DNA of 64,000 nt, from the NCBI RefSeq assembly GCF_029894425.1, contig NZ_JARXYJ010000001.1, positions 1,178,001 to 1,242,000 of the forward strand, written 5' to 3'. Each line of letters begins with the position of its first letter. The first letter of the stretch is position 1. The translations under genes were made by a program, and so were the position numbers. Origin of the DNA: Streptomyces sp. SAI-127 (GTDB lineage: Bacteria > Actinomycetota > Actinomycetes > Streptomycetales > Streptomycetaceae). Of this stretch, positions 39,123 through 48,197 are shown in pieces. Below the pieces are notes generated by a model. It saw nothing but the letters and a program-made list of their open reading frames with translations. It did not search any database and had not been told where the DNA came from.

Positions 39123-39334
39123 GCTCTGCTCCAGACAAAGAGTGCGGTCCTCCTACGCGCCCCCGTCGTGCGACCGCGACATTGAGATGACCCATTCGTA
39201 AGCGGGTACACGACGGCGTGCCACTCGGATGAGCCATGGGTGTGAGTGCCGCCCCTCGGCAGGCCTTAGCGGGACCGGATGCGGGAATCCGTCAGACAGT
39301 GCGCCGCACGGCGCCCGGAGGAGGAGGTCGGCCC

Positions 39335-39652
39335 GTGGATTCGACCACAGCACTGATCGTCGTCGCCGCTGTGCTCGCGGCGCTGGCGCTGGCGGTGGCC
39401 GTGGGACTGCTGGTGCGGCTCGTGAGAACCCGGCGCGGTCTGCGACGGGCGGGACTTCCCACCGGGCCCCGCTGGGTCTTCTGGGGCGCCCTGTTGTACT
39501 TCGTCCTGCCCACCGATCTGATGCCGGACCCGGTGTACCTCGACGACATCGGCGTCCTGCTGCTCGCCCTGCGCACCCTGCGCGGCTCCCCCGCCGACCG
39601 GGCGGCGCTGCGACTCGACCGGCGGGACCGGGAGACGTCCCGCCGAGCGTGA
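39335..39652 (+). CDS. YkvA/DUF1232-family membrane protein
   Basis: I start at GTG 39335, seven bases after GGAGGAGG, giving 105 residues; the longer in-frame extension is Arg/Pro-rich and unlikely. One N-terminal transmembrane helix (TALIVVAAVLAALALAVAVGLLVRLV, about 4-29), then a basic loop and the DUF1232 segment WGALLYFVLPTDLMPDPVYLDDIGVLLLALRTL, with the conserved L-P-x-D...P-D...D-D pattern. The biochemical role of YkvA proteins is unknown. It lies 131 bp upstream of the graspetide precursor; the intervening sequence looks like a separate promoter, so co-transcription is uncertain. Confidence 0.85.
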   Translation: MDSTTALIVVAAVLAALALAVAVGLLVRLVRTRRGLRRAGLPTGPRWVFWGALLYFVLPTDLMPDPVYLDDIGVLLLALRTLRGSPADRAALRLDRRDRETSRRA

Positions 39653-39783
39653 TTACGCAGTGTAAGGAAACCAATCACTCGTTCGATTCGTATAAGTCTC
39701 TGGAAGCCGAAGGAAGTCGGCTGACCTGACGGCGTCGTGGGGAGATGCCGTCTGCGAGAGGCAGTACCGGCGAGGGAGAGACG

Positions 39784-39975
39784 ATGCAACCGTTCGCGCT
39801 CAACTACGCACGTCCGGCAGCGACGTTGGAGGCGACCACTCCGTACGTCTACGACTCCGGGCTGCAGTTGAACGTGCTCATGGACGGCCGGGTCGCGGCC
39901 CGCGACCACGCGCTGATGAGGGAACTGGGGACCACCACCTCCACGGCGGGCTCCAAGACTCACTTCGACGACTGA
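39784..39975 (+). CDS. tgmA: Graspetide (ATP-grasp-modified RiPP) precursor peptide
   Basis: A 63-residue precursor starting at ATG 39784 after GAGGGAGA. The leader has the conserved FALNYARP block (residues 4-11) and a Y-D...L-N-V-L-M-D-G-R segment (23-36). The C-terminal core, from about residue 48, reads LGTTTSTAGSKTHFDD: Thr/Ser acceptors (50-54, 57, 59), Lys58 and two terminal Asp donors, with Glu47 just before. This is the pattern of the putative ATP-grasp target RiPPs paired with the SAV_5884-type maturase. The next gene, 17 bp on, is that ATP-grasp ligase. The modified peptide would carry side-chain ester (or amide) crosslinks; its activity is unknown. Confidence 0.93.
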   Translation: MQPFALNYARPAATLEATTPYVYDSGLQLNVLMDGRVAARDHALMRELGTTTSTAGSKTHFDD

Positions 39976-39992
39976 ACACAGGTCGCCGACCG

Positions 39993-40967
39993 ATGACCGT
40001 GTTGATTCTTACCTGCGAAGAGGACGTGACGGCCGACATGGTCGTCGTGCACCTCAACGCCACGGGGGTACCGGTGGTCCGGCTCGACCCGGCCGACCTG
40101 ACCGACGGTGTCGCACTGTCCGGGGAGTACGTGCACGGCACGTTCCGCGGCCACCTGTCGGCCGGCGGCCGTCTGGTGGGCATCTCCGGGCTGCGTTCGA
40201 TCTGGGTGCGCCGCCCGGGCACCCCCGCGGCGCGGGCGGCCGCGCCCTCGGAGTGGTTGACCGAGGAGTCCGCCCAAGCGCTGTACGGCATGCTCCGGGG
40301 CAGCGACGCCCGCTGGATGAACCACCCCGACGCGGCCCGCCGGGCCCGTCACAAGCCCTGGCAGCTACGGCTCGCCCAGCGCTGCGGACTGCCCGTCCCG
40401 GCCACGATCGTGACGACGTTCCCGCAGGCCGCCCGCGAGTTCGCCGAGCGCTATCCCGATCTGGTGGTCAAGCCGGTCTCCGGCGCGCACCCCCAGGACC
40501 CGCCGCGGGCGGTGCCGACCAGCCGGGTCGCGCCGGACACCGACTTCTCGGCTGTCGCGTTCGGGCCCACGCTGCTGCAACGGCGGGTCGCCAAACGGGC
40601 CGACATACGCCTGACCGTCGTGGGCGAGACCATGCTGGCGGCCCGGAAGGTGACCGGGCCCGATGACGAGGTGGACGTCCGTTTCGCCCCGCCCACCTCC
40701 TCCTGGGAGCCCACCGAGGTACCGCCGCGGGTGGCCGCGGCCGTCCGGGACTATCTCCGGGTGGCCGAACTGGCATACGGCGCCTTCGACTTCGCCGAGG
40801 ACGGGGACGGGACCTGGTGGTTCCTGGAGTGCAACCAGTCGGGTCAGTTCGGCTTCGTCGAGGTCGAGACGGGCCAGCCGATCGCGCGCAGCATCGCCGA
40901 GTGGCTGGCCCGGCCCGGTCCGGACCCGCGCTCGCACGCCGACGGGGCGAACACCACAGTTTCCTGA
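39993..40967 (+). CDS. tgmB: Graspetide ATP-grasp ligase
   Basis: The 324-residue ligase starts at ATG 39993. The first 110 residues are the MvdD-like pre-ATP-grasp domain (VLILTCEEDVTADMVVVHLN, LRSIWVRRPGTP). The ATP-grasp fold follows: VVKPVSGAHPQDP with the nucleotide-binding Lys, LLQRRVAKRADIRLTVVGETMLAAR, and the terminal metal-binding YGAFDFAEDGDGTWWFLECNQSGQFGF (Glu-x-Asn motif). It should activate acidic side chains of the TgmA core as acyl-phosphates and close macrolactone rings on Thr/Ser. No protease, transporter or PIMT-type methyltransferase is adjacent. The next gene converges, 7 bp away. Confidence 0.95.
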   Translation: MTVLILTCEEDVTADMVVVHLNATGVPVVRLDPADLTDGVALSGEYVHGTFRGHLSAGGRLVGISGLRSIWVRRPGTPAARAAAPSEWLTEESAQALYGMLRGSDARWMNHPDAARRARHKPWQLRLAQRCGLPVPATIVTTFPQAAREFAERYPDLVVKPVSGAHPQDPPRAVPTSRVAPDTDFSAVAFGPTLLQRRVAKRADIRLTVVGETMLAARKVTGPDDEVDVRFAPPTSSWEPTEVPPRVAAAVRDYLRVAELAYGAFDFAEDGDGTWWFLECNQSGQFGFVEVETGQPIARSIAEWLARPGPDPRSHADGANTTVS

Positions 40968-40974
40968 GGCCGGG

Positions 40975-41190
40975 TCAGTAGGGCCGCGGGGCGGCGGGCG
41001 GAAGGGCCGGCACCCATCCCTGACCGGGCGAGGCCGGTCGCTCGGGGACGGGCGGGGGCATGAGGGACTGCAGTGGCCGCATGACGTACTCCAGTTCCCT
41101 GCGTACGCGCTCGGCCTCCCTGCGGGTCAGAGCGGGGACGTCGCCGCGCTCGGCGACGAGTCGGTCGTAGATGGGGGAATCCTGGAACAC
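40975..41190 (-). CDS. Small conserved helical protein
   Basis: A 71-residue protein starting at GTG 41190. The helical N-terminal half (FQDSPIYDRLVAERGDVPALTRREAERVRRELEYVM, amphipathic and charged) is followed by a Pro-rich tail. I do not know a function. The composition and codon positions look genuine, unlike the opposite strand. It converges on tgmB with only 7 bp between stops, so no terminator fits there. Nothing indicates a role in peptide maturation. Confidence 0.65.
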   Translation of the reverse strand: MFQDSPIYDRLVAERGDVPALTRREAERVRRELEYVMRPLQSLMPPPVPERPASPGQGWVPALPPAAPRPY

Positions 41191-43739: not shown

Positions 43740-45506
43740 TCAGGCGACCTGTCCGGCGTGCAGCGCGGTGTAGGCCCCGCCGCGGCGCAGGAGTTCCTCG
43801 TGGGTGCCGGTCTCCAGGATCCGGCCCTCCCCCATCACCACGATGCGGTCGGCGCCCCGCACGGTCGACAGCCGGTGCGCGACCACGAAGGTCGTGCGTC
43901 CGCGCAGCAGCCGGGCCAGCGCCTGCTGGACGAGCGCCTCGGAGCGGGTGTCCAGGGCGGAGGTCGCCTCGTCGAGGACCAGCACCCGCGGATCGCGGAT
44001 CAGGGCCCGGGCGATGGCCAGGCGCTGGCGCTGCCCGCCGGACAGCCGGGCGCCGCGCTCGCCGACCAGGGTGTCGAGGCCCTGCGGCAGCCGGTCCACG
44101 AACTCCAGTGCGTTCGCGTCGCGCAGCGCCGTGCGTACCGTCTCCTCGTCGGCGTCGTCCATGCCGTAGGCGACGTTCTCCCGGATCGTGCCGTCGAAGA
44201 GGATGGACTCCTGCGGTACGACGGACACGAAGCGCCGGTAGGTGCGCAGGTCGAGGGTGTTCATGTCGGTCCCGTCGAGCAGCAGCCGTCCCGCGGTGGG
44301 CCGGATGAAACCGATGACGAGGTTGAGGACGGTGGACTTGCCCGCACCGGACGCACCGACCAGGGCGACGGTCTCGCCGGGGGTGACGGACAGGGTGAAG
44401 TCCCGTACCGCGGGCCGTCCGTTGTCGTACGCGTGGCCCACGCCCTGGAATTCGACGGCCCCGCGCACCGAGTCGACCCGGGCCTTGCCCTCGTTGTCCT
44501 CGAGTTCGGGCGCCTGGAGCACCTCGCCGACGGAGCGGACGGACTCCAGGCCCTTGGTGATGACCGGGGCGAGTCCTGCCAACGTTGTCGTGGAGTTGGT
44601 GAGCGTGGTCAGGAACGCGCTGAGCATCACGACGTCGCCGGGGGTGACGCCCCAGACGCCGTAGTACGACACCAGCGCGGCCGCGGCGAGGACGAGCACG
44701 CCGACCACGTTGAGGACGACCCAGGCCAGCGAGCCGAAGCGGCCGTTGACCAGGTCGAGACGCATCCCGGACGTCAGCAGGCGGCGCAGGGTGCCGTCCA
44801 TGCGGCGCAGCGCCTTGCCCTCCAGGCCGTGGGCGCGGGTGACCGGAATGAGGCGGGTCATCTCCGTGACGCGGGACGACAGGGTCTCGACCTCGTGCCG
44901 GAAGTGTTCGTTGTGGGTGCGCAGTCGGGCCCTGAGGCGGGCCACGACGAGGGCGGCGGCGGGCACGACGACGAGGAAGACCGGCACGAACTCCGGTGTC
45001 CGTACGGCGATGATGACGAGGCCGCCGACGAGCACGGTGATCGCGCCCAGGCCGGTCTCAGCGGTCTGCTGCACCATCTGTTCGACCGTCTCGACGTCCC
45101 GCACCACCTTCGCCTGCAGCACACCGGCGCTGACCCGCGAGTGGTAGCCGATGGACAGCTGCTGCATGCGGGTGCACAGGGCGGAGCGCAGGGTGGTGCC
45201 CATGCGACGGACGCTGCCGTACAGGAGGCGGACGTAGAGAAGGTGCAGTGGGTAGTTGACCAGAAGGATGAACAGGATGATGCCCGTGCTGGTCCAGAGC
45301 CGGGCGATCGGCTGATGCTGGACGACGGTGTCGATGATGGACGCGGTGATCAGGGGCAGCAGCCACACCGGGCTGTGCTTGACGGTGAACACCGTGGCGG
45401 CCGCGGCCAGTCGGCGGCGGTCGGCACGGAACAGGTAGGTGAGCGTGCGTATCGGGTGTTCGCCCCGATAGCGGTGGTCGAGCGGTTTCTCCAGCGACGA
45501 TGCCAT
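43740..45506 (-). CDS. ABC exporter half-transporter
   Basis: A 588-residue fused permease-ATPase, starting at ATG 45506. Six transmembrane helices in the first 330 residues (FTVKHSPVWLLPLITASIIDTVV, GIILFILLVNYPLHLLYV and so on), then the nucleotide-binding domain: Walker A GASGAGKST (about 380), Q-loop VVPQESILFDGTIRENVAY, signature LSGGQRQRLAIARALI, Walker B RVLVLDEATSALD and H-loop VVAHRLSTV. It must dimerise; no partner half-transporter gene is adjacent, so a homodimer is likely. Substrate unknown (lipid, drug or peptide). A LacI-type palindrome lies 34 bp upstream of the start. Confidence 0.93.
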   Translation of the reverse strand: MASSLEKPLDHRYRGEHPIRTLTYLFRADRRRLAAAATVFTVKHSPVWLLPLITASIIDTVVQHQPIARLWTSTGIILFILLVNYPLHLLYVRLLYGSVRRMGTTLRSALCTRMQQLSIGYHSRVSAGVLQAKVVRDVETVEQMVQQTAETGLGAITVLVGGLVIIAVRTPEFVPVFLVVVPAAALVVARLRARLRTHNEHFRHEVETLSSRVTEMTRLIPVTRAHGLEGKALRRMDGTLRRLLTSGMRLDLVNGRFGSLAWVVLNVVGVLVLAAAALVSYYGVWGVTPGDVVMLSAFLTTLTNSTTTLAGLAPVITKGLESVRSVGEVLQAPELEDNEGKARVDSVRGAVEFQGVGHAYDNGRPAVRDFTLSVTPGETVALVGASGAGKSTVLNLVIGFIRPTAGRLLLDGTDMNTLDLRTYRRFVSVVPQESILFDGTIRENVAYGMDDADEETVRTALRDANALEFVDRLPQGLDTLVGERGARLSGGQRQRLAIARALIRDPRVLVLDEATSALDTRSEALVQQALARLLRGRTTFVVAHRLSTVRGADRIVVMGEGRILETGTHEELLRRGGAYTALHAGQVA

Positions 45507-45539
45507 CGTCGGCGGTCCTCCCCGGTTGCCGATGTGAGG

Positions 45540-45551
45540 GCAAGCGCTTTC
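45540..45551 (-). promoter_or_regulatory. LacI-type palindrome upstream of the exporter
   Basis: GCAAGCGCTTTC contains the AAGCGCTT core of LacI/GalR operators (GAAAGCGCTTTC form) with one mismatch in the outer arm. It sits in the exporter promoter region. No LacI-family gene is in the window. Confidence 0.45.
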
Positions 45552-45595
45552 TCCCCCTCGTCGGCGAGGGATACACCAGGCGGTGGAGAGGACTC

Positions 45596-46138
45596 CTACT
45601 CGTCCAGAGTGCGGGCGAGTTCCGTGGTGGCGTGGGCGATCTCGGTGTCGTCGTCGGCCATCAGCAGACTGAGGGCGCCGCTCTTGGCGCGGACGGCCTG
45701 ACGGGCCTGACGCTCCCACACCACGGGGTTCTCGCGGTGGTTGAGCAACTTGGGGTAGACGGCCGCCGTGCTCTCCCACTGGCGGGCGCCGGCGATGCTC
45801 CGAAGCAGCTGGATGATCTCCGCCCGGCAGGTCACCTGCGGGAGTTGGGCGAGTTCCCAGAGGAAGGGGACGGTGGCGGCGGTGGCCTGCTCCACGACGA
45901 AGCCGTACTGGCAGATGCGCTTGCGCAGGTCGCCGAGTGCGGCGCTTGCGGTGTCGGGGTCACCCCAGGCCACGCTGTTGAGGAGCAGCGGGATGGCCGC
46001 GGCGCAGCCGGTGGAGTCCTGGATCTCGGCCCAGGGCACCCGGCTCAGCGCCGCGAGGGGCGTGGTCGGCGCCACCCCGGTCGTGGGCACGGGGCGGCTG
46101 GTGCGCTCGTTGCTCGGCTGGTCCGGAGCGGTGCGCAT
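45596..46138 (-). CDS. Uncharacterised helical-repeat protein
   Basis: A 180-residue protein from ATG 46138 (an in-frame ATG at 46165 has no ribosome site). After a flexible N-terminus, residues about 45-180 are regularly helical: AIPLLLNSVAWGDPDTASAALGDLRKRICQ, ATAATVPFLWELAQLPQVTCRAEIIQLLRSIAG and QARQAVRAKSGALSLL, suggestive of HEAT-like repeats. No catalytic motif. It lies 28 bp downstream of the RsbW-like kinase on the same strand, so it may be co-transcribed with that regulatory gene. Confidence 0.7.
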   Translation of the reverse strand: MRTAPDQPSNERTSRPVPTTGVAPTTPLAALSRVPWAEIQDSTGCAAAIPLLLNSVAWGDPDTASAALGDLRKRICQYGFVVEQATAATVPFLWELAQLPQVTCRAEIIQLLRSIAGARQWESTAAVYPKLLNHRENPVVWERQARQAVRAKSGALSLLMADDDTEIAHATTELARTLDE

Positions 46139-46166: not shown

Positions 46167-46709
46167 TCAGGGAGGAGGGGCGGTCGACAGCTTGGCCCAG
46201 ACGGACTTGCCGGCCGGGGGCCGCGAGGTCCAGCCCCACTCCTGAGCCAGGGCGTCGACGATGTACAGGCCACGGCCGTGCTCCCGCAGGGCGGTGACGT
46301 CGGCGGGCGTGTACGCGGGTGGCTCGTCTGCGGGGTCGGAGACGGTCACCAGCAGATGGGCGGGGTTCAGGGACAACGCCAGCCACACCTCGGCCGCACC
46401 GCCCGCCGCGGGCCGGCTCACCGCGTGCGCCACGGCGTTGGCCGCGAGTTCGGTGATCACGAGGGTGGCGTCGTCGCTGCGGTGGTCGAGGGACCAGCAG
46501 CTCAGAGTCTCGCGGGTGAAGGCGCGGGCCCGGGCGAAACCCTCCCCGCTGCAGCTGACGAGCAGTGCGGCGGTGTCGAGGGAGCCCGGTCGCGGTTGTG
46601 CGCCGGCGGGACCCGGACGCCGCACGCTCTCACCGGCCGGGCCCGCATCACCCGCCTCCGGCACAGCCTGGCTCGGCGGCCGGATCGCATGGTTCGCAGG
46701 TGACGACAC
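46167..46709 (-). CDS. RsbW-like anti-sigma ATPase (HATPase_c_2)
   Basis: The 180-residue protein starts at GTG 46709, five bases after AAGGAG. After a disordered N-terminus of 55 residues comes a GHKL ATPase domain: ATLVITELAANAVAHAV is the N-box, VTVSDPADEPP the G1 box, and EHGRGLYIVDALAQEWGW the G2 region. Such proteins bind ATP and phosphorylate anti-anti-sigma factors or act directly as regulators. It is divergent from the DUF397 and XRE genes, forming the three-gene set known from whiJ/abaA-type developmental loci. Confidence 0.9.
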   Translation of the reverse strand: MSSPANHAIRPPSQAVPEAGDAGPAGESVRRPGPAGAQPRPGSLDTAALLVSCSGEGFARARAFTRETLSCWSLDHRSDDATLVITELAANAVAHAVSRPAAGGAAEVWLALSLNPAHLLVTVSDPADEPPAYTPADVTALREHGRGLYIVDALAQEWGWTSRPPAGKSVWAKLSTAPPP

Positions 46710-46791
46710 GGCATCTCCTTGATGCGACGTCAAGACGGGGCGCAACCGCAGGGGTTGACGCTGGAGCTATTATCCACGCTGAAGGCGCCCG

Positions 46792-46820
46792 CGTGCAATT
46801 GCACGAGAAATTGCGCGAAG
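46792..46820. promoter_or_regulatory. Palindrome and direct repeat between kinase and DUF397 genes
   Basis: CGTGCAATTGCACG (46792-46805) is a perfect 14-bp palindrome. Its right half plus the following sequence gives a direct repeat, ATTGCACGA and ATTGCGCGA (46798 and 46809), spaced 11 bp apart, one helical turn. It lies in the divergent promoter region and is a good candidate binding site for the XRE regulator encoded at 47280. Confidence 0.65.
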
Positions 46821-46920
46821 ATTGGGTGGGGCCACGGAGGTTGCTGTTGTGCACCCCTGTCCCATCCCGCACGGCCGGGCACGGCGCCCGGCGAAGAACG
46901 TGAACAGCAAGGAGACTGCA

Positions 46921-47151
46921 GTGCCACCAGTGCAGAACGGAGTGCGGGCGAGTTTGCTCGACGCCCGCTGGGTCAAGAGCCGGCACAGCAACGCCGAGGG
47001 CAACTGCGTCGAAGTGGCCACACTCGTCGACGGCGGCGTCGCCCTGCGCAACTCCCGTGATCCCGACGGTCCCGCGCTGGTCTACACACCGGCCGAGGTC
47101 GCGGCGTTCCTCGCCGGCGCGAAGGACGGTGAGTTCGACCACCTCCTGTGA
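46921..47151 (+). CDS. DUF397 small regulator
   Basis: A 76-residue protein starting at GTG 46921, behind AAGGAG. It has the DUF397 pattern: ARWVKSRHSNAEGNCVEVATL, VALRNSRDPDGPALVYTPAEVAAFL and GAKDGEFDHL. DUF397 proteins are encoded next to XRE-DUF5753 regulators and are thought to act as their antagonist partners in Streptomyces development and antibiotic control. The XRE gene follows after 128 bp with a terminator-like hairpin between them, so the two are not simply one operon. Confidence 0.93.
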   Translation: MPPVQNGVRASLLDARWVKSRHSNAEGNCVEVATLVDGGVALRNSRDPDGPALVYTPAEVAAFLAGAKDGEFDHLL

Positions 47152-47164
47152 GGTGCGGGATCCG

Positions 47165-47205
47165 AGGTGCCGGTGGTCCCAACTCCCGTGCCACCACCGG
47201 CACCT
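47165..47205 (+). terminator. Hairpin terminator after the DUF397 gene
   Basis: AGGTGCCGGTGGT (47165-47177) pairs perfectly with ACCACCGGCACCT (47193-47205) around a 15-nt loop, 14 bp after the DUF397 stop. It would separate the DUF397 transcript from the XRE gene. Confidence 0.85.
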
Positions 47206-47279
47206 ACGGAATGATGCCGAACGGCCACCCTGCGTGCGATAGTGTGAGTCGTCTCTGTGCCGGTTTACTGGGAGTCAGG

Positions 47280-48197
47280 ATGTCTGCCGCGTCGCATCGC
47301 ACCTCCCGTCTGGAACCTTATCTGGACCGGTCCGAACCGGCTCCCACCCTGCTGAAGATGCTGGTCGGCGTCCAGTTGGCGGGATTCCGCGAGGATGCCG
47401 GGCTCGCCCAGGACCAGGCGGCGCGAGCCCTCGGGTTCAGCCCGGCGAAGCTGTCCCGCATCGAGTCGGGCAAGGGCCGCAAGCCCCCGTCGGAGAGCGA
47501 CGTACGCGCCCTCCTCCAGCTGTACGGCACCGACGACTACGAGGCCTCGGTGCTGCTCAAGCTGTTGCAGCGGGCCGGTGAGCCGGGCTGGTGGCAGCGG
47601 TACGACAAGCGGCTGATGCCCGAGTGGTTCGACCGCCTGGTCGGGCTCCAGGAGGCGGCCGCGGCGATCCGTACCTTCGAGATCCAGTACGTCCCCGGCC
47701 TGCTGCAGACCCCGGACTACACACGGGCGGTGGTGGAACGCGGCCTGCCGACCGCGGCGGCCGGCGAGGTGGCGCGACGCGTCGAACTGCGCACGCGGCG
47801 TGCGCAGTTGCTGCAGCGCGCGGACCCGCCTCAGCTGTGGGCGGTGATCGACGAGTCGGTGCTGCTGCGGGTGCTGGGCGGCCGCGAGGTCATGCGGGCC
47901 CAGCTGGCGCACCTCGTAGAGATGGCCCAGCGCCCCCATGTGACGGTGCAGGTCGTCCCCCTGGACGTGACCAACGCGTCCGCCCCGGCCATACCGATCA
48001 CCTACCTCCGCTTCGGGGGCCTGGATCTGCCGGACGTCGTCTATCTGGAGCACATCAAGAGCGCGAACTTCCTGGAGGACCGGGACGAGACGGAGGAGTA
48101 CCGGCTCGCCCTGGACCGGCTGGCGGACGACGCGCTCGAACCCCGGGACTCGCTGCGGCTGTTGCGGCAGACGATGGAGCAGCGTTACGGCGGCTGA
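47280..48197 (+). CDS. XRE-family regulator with DUF5753
   Basis: The 305-residue regulator starts at ATG 47280. The N-terminal helix-turn-helix is at about 28-85: VGVQLAGFREDAGLAQDQAARALGFSPAKLSRIESGKGRKPP. The C-terminal DUF5753 domain (about 115-300) has the usual IQYVPGLLQTPDYTRAVVERG and VQVVPLDVTN motifs. Proteins of this class pair with DUF397 and RsbW-like partners (WhiJ family) and control sporulation or antibiotic genes. The same three partners are grouped here, so this is a complete module. Confidence 0.94.
   Translation: MSAASHRTSRLEPYLDRSEPAPTLLKMLVGVQLAGFREDAGLAQDQAARALGFSPAKLSRIESGKGRKPPSESDVRALLQLYGTDDYEASVLLKLLQRAGEPGWWQRYDKRLMPEWFDRLVGLQEAAAAIRTFEIQYVPGLLQTPDYTRAVVERGLPTAAAGEVARRVELRTRRAQLLQRADPPQLWAVIDESVLLRVLGGREVMRAQLAHLVEMAQRPHVTVQVVPLDVTNASAPAIPITYLRFGGLDLPDVVYLEHIKSANFLEDRDETEEYRLALDRLADDALEPRDSLRLLRQTMEQRYGG

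Follow-up and report, generated by a model that had tools for sequence, protein, structure and literature searches.

The question raised by this locus is whether a small precursor gene and an ATP-grasp ligase gene that stand alone in Streptomyces sp. SAI-127 encode an undescribed natural product or a member of a known peptide family, and whether the absence of a methyltransferase gene beside them is a peculiarity or the normal state. All positions refer to the window, the 64,000 nt stretch of DNA that was analysed.

The gene pair and its relatives

An earlier note, made from the sequence without database searches, had described a stand-alone precursor/maturase pair between a DUF1232 gene and a convergent small ORF. 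Profile searches bore out this layout, in which the genes are arranged as follows.

39236-39652, DUF1232 gene upstream of tgmA (PF06803, 28.7 bits against a cut-off of 23; start codon uncertain)
39774-39783, + strand, ribosome-binding-site region of tgmA, GGGAGAGACG (from an alignment of 22 loci)
39784-39975, + strand, tgmA (pruA-type), 63 aa graspetide precursor (TIGR04186 and PF14404)
39993-40967, + strand, tgmB (pruB-type), ATP-grasp macrocyclase of 324 aa (TIGR04187, match to PDB 9BOU)
40975-41190, − strand, 71 aa ORF, convergent, downstream of tgmB
43743-45779, ABC transporter (domain search)

The earlier note had staked its reading on TgmA passing TIGR04186, which it does over residues 1-63 with 47.8 bits (cut-off 25, E 1.2e-12). 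PF14404 (‘Strep_pep’) is matched over positions 1-63 of 63 with 128.5 bits, against a cut-off of 25. Likewise, TgmB passes TIGR04187 (GRASP_SAV_5884), the second model that the note had proposed, with 390.3 bits against a cut-off of 350 (E 6.2e-117). The pair has the makeup of a graspetide locus; the precursor adjoins an ATP-grasp ligase, and its core carries Ser/Thr/Lys donors and Asp/Glu-type acceptors. Both TIGR04187 and PF14404 have one match each in the 10.7 Mb genome.

Both ORFs are intact in the window. The tgmA gene starts with an ATG at 39784 and runs for 63 codons to a stop at 39973-39975, leaving an intergenic gap of 17 nt before tgmB. A mechanical ORF list puts the start of tgmA at 39745 (76 aa); the start at 39784 was adopted because GGGAGAGACGATG is conserved in 22 aligned loci and the Pfam match begins at that Met. 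Nine of the ten ribosome-binding-site positions are invariant in the same 22 loci, and the tenth is at least 90 % conserved. The locus showed no gene for a protease or an exporter, which counts against the explanation preferred below. The ABC transporter further downstream was detected in 51 of the best 80 of at least 348 loci; no peptidase domain was found in it.

Two sets of related loci were compared. The first comprises the best 80 of at least 348 loci ranked by similarity to the query. The second (L088-L117 and L126-L169, 74 loci) serves as a counterweight and may overlap the first; five spurious matches without tgmB (L140-L143, L145) were left out, giving 69 genuine precursors. Proportions in this second set are not to be read as frequencies, because the best matches were mixed with purposely chosen weak ones. 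In all of the best 80 of at least 348 loci tgmB adjoins tgmA, with 14-26 nt between the end of the tgmA match and the start of tgmB (the three 26 nt spacings belong to tgmA matches that stop at residue 61). Additionally, a tgmB match lies within the same locus of about 3 kb for 69 of the 69 precursors of the second set. Diverged copies retain just tgmA and tgmB, and searches there for the genes that flank the pair in the window gave nothing but two weak hits. The DUF1232 gene was considered as a functional partner and set aside; it is found in 74 of the best 80 of at least 348 loci and is undetected in the 1.5 kb flanks of the diverged copies. Two relatives are apparently damaged: in L139 the tgmA frame departs before the core, and at G217:C1:1292652-1293559 tgmB is matched as two pieces.

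Within the genus, 214 of 392 sampled genomes (the strain's own counted) have a PF14404 match above the cut-off; in a class-wide sample 22 of 394 genomes do, all within one of 137 genera. Among the best 80 of at least 348 loci, Streptomyces is the title genus of 79; the remaining one (L031) is labelled Kitasatospora aureofaciens, which is a point against the explanation preferred below. The Strep_pep family is linked to a 2009 survey in the available part of PMC8939145, which also assigns graspetide motif groups 8, 9 and 11 to one common leader cluster. Nothing sets TgmA apart from the other PF14404/TIGR04186 precursors, with which it shares a full-length match and, among the best 80 of at least 348 relatives, an identical core.

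The closest solved structure to TgmB by sequence search is PDB 9BOU chain A, with 566.7 bits over residues 1-312 and 257 of 312 aligned residues identical (82 %). Its title in the Foldseek listing reads ‘ATP-grasp ligase PruB from Streptomyces coelicolor A3(2)’, released 2024-12-18. Foldseek gives an identity of 78 %, where the sequence alignment instead gives 257/312. An AlphaFold2 model of TgmB, built from a shallow alignment of 30 sequences, reached a mean pLDDT of just 47.2 and is poor; thus only the PDB titles of entries already matched by sequence were taken from Foldseek, and no evidence on the fold. ‘Pru’ is read here as the prefix of prunipeptin, which makes 9BOU by name the prunipeptin enzyme (PruA/PruB; MIBiG BGC0002725), and TgmB, the sole TIGR04187 match in the genome, a close relative of it. 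Homologues up to 95 % identical are named ‘putative ATP-grasp-modified RiPP’ by NCBI among the matches listed. A title in the reference list of PMC13097080 describes prunipeptin, from S. prunicolor, as novel and bicyclic, and the two acceptor Asp residues of TgmA agree with a bicyclic product. The accessible text of PMC11888242 gives its cluster family 3,589 members, of which 3,572 (99.53 %) are in Streptomyces; PF14404 occurs in one genus of the class-wide sample. S. prunicolor itself is absent from the best 80 of at least 348 loci.

On enzyme similarity and the name of the PDB entry, the product is probably of the prunipeptin type. The earlier note had placed the locus first as a possible undescribed natural product; this does not hold, because an enzyme 82 % identical is already deposited as PruB and the prunipeptin family has been recorded from thousands of Streptomyces genomes. 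A literature search found no paper that names the code 9BOU or gives the core sequence GTTTSTAGSKTHFDD, and a search by annotation names found no functional study of the locus recognizable from titles and opening lines of abstracts among the matches listed. The locus belongs to a kind already known, and the chemistry of its peptide is probably not new. Other characterized enzymes are remote. Microviridin-type MdnB/MdnC, AMdnB, CdnC and plesiocin PsnB share the enzyme superfamily with TgmB at 46-93 bits; however, their precursors and ring patterns differ.

The precursor core and its predicted linkages

The precursor is divided as follows.

39787-39819, + strand, leader motif QPFALNYARPA, residues 2-12 (conserved by pN/pS; putative recognition role)
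39928-39972, + strand, core GTTTSTAGSKTHFDD, residues 49-63 (invariance and pN/pS; linkages predicted), with acceptors Asp62 and Asp63 and candidate donors Thr51, Ser53, Ser57, Lys58 and Thr59

Residues 2-12 resemble the graspetide leader motif Phhx(1,2)h set out in the available part of PMC8939145. The core is identical in all of the best 80 of at least 348 loci despite variation in the leader, an identity that is biased upwards because these loci were picked by similarity. Over the 78 distinct DNA alleles among 81, pN/pS is 0.016 for the core, at a synonymous divergence of 0.375, and 0.041 for residues 2-12, compared with 0.443 for residues 13-25 and 0.199 for residues 26-48. The core is under purifying selection, which indicates that the locus is in use.

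In the second set the core is unchanged in 41 of the 69 genuine precursors. Setting aside L139, where the core is out of frame, and two strongly diverged precursors (L138 and L144) leaves 66 cores, in which positions 49, 50, 52, 54 and 58 are variable while Thr51, Ser53, Ala55, Gly56, Ser57, Thr59, His60, Phe61, Asp62 and Asp63 are invariant. At position 58, 15 of the 66 have Ala or Gln instead of Lys. The Ala variants occur in L088-L091, L106, L114, L115, L167 and L168, five of which also carry Thr54 to Lys. By hand alignment, L138 and L144 retain Asp62 and Asp63 as well as a hydroxyl at each of positions 51, 53 and 57, with Phe61 lost in both and Thr59 lost in L144. These two precursors are adjacent to each other with one tgmB beside them (G302:C15:300638-301047), and their C-termini read DDDTD and DDDDHEYVH. 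This pattern points to Asp62 and Asp63 as the probable acceptors and to position 51, together with 53 or 57, as the likely source of the essential donors.

In all likelihood, this is a two-gene prunipeptin-type graspetide locus in which TgmB forms two linkages at Asp62 and Asp63 of TgmA to give a bicyclic peptide. In the proposed mechanism, a promoter-like element precedes tgmA-tgmB, and TgmB would bind TgmA through the leader motif PFALNYARP. By analogy with graspetide synthetases, which according to the accessible text of PMC13097080 phosphorylate the acceptor carboxylate and guide the donor side chains to attack it, TgmB would phosphorylate the side-chain carboxylates of Asp62 and Asp63, and side-chain nucleophiles of the 15-residue core would attack these activated groups. 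With two acceptors, two linkages would be expected, and thus a bicyclic C-terminal peptide with a mass change of about −36.02 Da. The hydroxyls of Thr51, Ser53 or Ser57 are the likely donors, and in this species Lys58 is a further possible donor. The scheme would require neither methylation nor an aspartimide step. Leader removal and export, if any, would fall to proteins encoded elsewhere.

A more specific pattern would consist of one Thr/Ser-Asp ester and one Lys58-Asp amide, with another pattern in lineages that lack Lys58. Lys58 is invariant in the best 80 of at least 348 loci, and the prunipeptin to which the enzyme points is bicyclic by title. Prunipeptin reportedly contains one ester and one Lys amide. 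However, Ala or Gln stands at position 58 in 15 of the 66 intact, not strongly diverged cores; such variants show that the family as a whole does not depend on a Lys amide. For this strain, the combination of ester and amide is a quite possible arrangement, to be held tentatively. The natural Lys58 variants amount to a natural experiment, and they allow the ring-forming residues to be predicted.

Absence of a methyltransferase

The earlier note had pointed out that no PIMT-like methyltransferase is adjacent, that loci of the SAV_5884 type often carry one, and that the product would be unmethylated or would depend on distant genes. No such gene lies between or beside the DUF1232 gene, tgmA, tgmB and the convergent ORF, as the note had stated. 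A genome-wide search with TIGR04188, which the note had proposed, gave a best match of 258.5 bits (267.7 bits when searched as a protein) against a cut-off of 380. This PIMT-like protein is encoded at L001 (G000:C1:6709956-6710648), next to what by eye resembles a globin gene, and is also the best of nine matches to PF01135 in the genome. It is possibly a housekeeping or pamtide-type enzyme.

The same protein (L001:1426-2418) was used as a probe on relatives. It has a match in 6 of 12 TIGR04187-type loci from five multi-copy genomes; these loci (L170-L181) are part of 23 places, and one of them (L181) falls below the TIGR04187 cut-off. Near the PF14404 loci it has a match in none of the best 80 of at least 348, 73 of which span at least 4 kb on both sides. 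Two weak matches were treated as chance, one in L017 (E 0.38) and the other a second piece in L175. The claim that such loci often carry the methyltransferase is thus partly right, with 6 of these 12 TIGR04187-type loci in its favour and none of the 80 close relatives. Identity to the TgmB of the query follows the same division, with L179-L181 left out of the comparison: 34-35 % in the 4 comparable of the 6 PIMT-bearing loci, 59-68 % in 5 PIMT-free loci and 77-97 % in the best 80 of at least 348 loci. Absence of the methyltransferase is the rule in this lineage.

The locus likewise differs from those of the graspimiditides (group 13; fuscimiditide, amycolimiditide), which also use an ATP-grasp macrocyclase on a leader-core precursor; some PIMT-bearing loci (L170, L171) likewise exceed the TIGR04187 cut-off. 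Group 13 clusters are ‘almost always’ accompanied by a PIMT according to the accessible text of PMC13097080, and the characterized graspimiditides are methylated on a loop Asp in the portion available of PMC13001092. The tgmAB locus has neither; no PIMT lies beside the pair, and the only Asp residues of the core are the C-terminal ones at 62 and 63. It is very improbable that the peptide is modified further in trans by the distant PIMT-like methyltransferase to become a graspimiditide. The genome does encode one such protein; however, it scores below the TIGR04188 cut-off, its neighbour resembles a globin gene, none is found nearby in 80 of 80 close loci (best 80 of at least 348) as against 6 of the 12 TIGR04187-type loci, and the core offers Asp62 and Asp63 where a loop Asp would be methylated. 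Dependence on distant genes was rejected on these grounds, and the missing methyltransferase is normal for the lineage.

The upstream element and a possible role

A short conserved sequence and, further downstream, a group of regulator-like genes bear on how a prunipeptin-type locus of this kind might be controlled.

39662-39697, + strand, promoter-like element GTAAGGAAACCAATCACTCGTTCGATTCGTATAAGT, with a -10-like TATAAG at 39691-39696 (putative promoter function)
46170-48194, HATPase_c_2 ATPase gene (− strand), DUF397 gene (+ strand) and XRE-type regulator gene (+ strand) (domain search)

The 36 bp element is nearly invariant in 81 aligned upstream regions, and its flanks drift. At up to 3 mismatches it has a single site in the genome, with none for the reversed control; its right 22 bp return the same single site, and its left 17 bp have a second genome site with 2 mismatches. 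At up to 2 mismatches, the 22 bp part occurs in 67 of 199 genomes of the genus, in exactly one copy each, with none for the reversed-pattern control. All 67 genomes carry PF14404; the site is thus present in 67 of 104 carriers, and the 95 genomes without PF14404 all lack it. The 37 carriers without the 22 bp part at this threshold speak against a clean promoter story. In the second locus set the element is present in 39 of 69 loci and absent from 30 at up to 7 mismatches, mainly diverged copies.

Sites could be paired with tgmA coordinates in 62 of the 67 genomes; in all 62 the site is upstream of tgmA and in its orientation, at a distance of 27-97 nt that falls into two classes, 27-30 and 85-97 nt. 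One further site (G133) was paired by hand at 87 nt, and the remaining 4 are in PF14404 carriers. The element is also present in relatives without a detectable DUF1232 gene, e.g. L147, L154 and L156. A simple scan found no classical sigma-70 promoter at the locus. A structured 5′ leader was rejected, as RNAalifold returned no compensatory change in 16 pairs and Rfam no matches. The natural reading is that, in the main lineage, the element may serve tgmAB as a promoter or operator.

That the locus is a relic out of use, as its small size, its lack of accessory genes and the two apparently damaged relatives might suggest, is most implausible given a core pN/pS of 0.016 at a synonymous divergence of 0.375, the conserved ribosome-binding site and promoter-like element, and two intact ORFs in the window.

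The ATPase, DUF397 and XRE genes form a putative abaA/bldB/whiJ-like trio. The XRE-type regulator resembles the SCO1979 family, below its cut-off. Relatives of the DUF397 and XRE genes are found 2.9-7.6 kb from tgmA in 45 of the best 80 of at least 348 loci, a count that leaves out the ATPase and in which 76 of the 80 loci have at least 7.9 kb downstream. Clusters of the abaA/bldB/whiJ type are described in the available part of PMC10294661, in which a WhiJ protein binds direct repeats. The BldB/WhiJ-like pair is one candidate regulator of tgmAB, a lead rather than a result. Beyond this, the peptide could have a conserved role in the physiology or development of Streptomyces, and not be a strain-specific weapon. 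Its nearly fixed core would then be made, at least in the main lineage, from a dedicated 36 bp promoter, single-copy and almost invariant, that is read by a specific regulator; this reading is a speculative one and rather unlikely to be right in full.

For the choice of targets, a false lead has been removed, and the cluster need not be prioritized as an undescribed product. What is new is the near-fixed core, the replaceability of Lys58 in the wider family and the 36 bp element beside PF14404 loci. The locus is ordinary as chemistry and mildly interesting as a conserved peptide; S. coelicolor offers a place to test why 214 of 392 genomes of the genus keep it, with a nearly unchanged core and a promoter-like element that has no other site in the genome.
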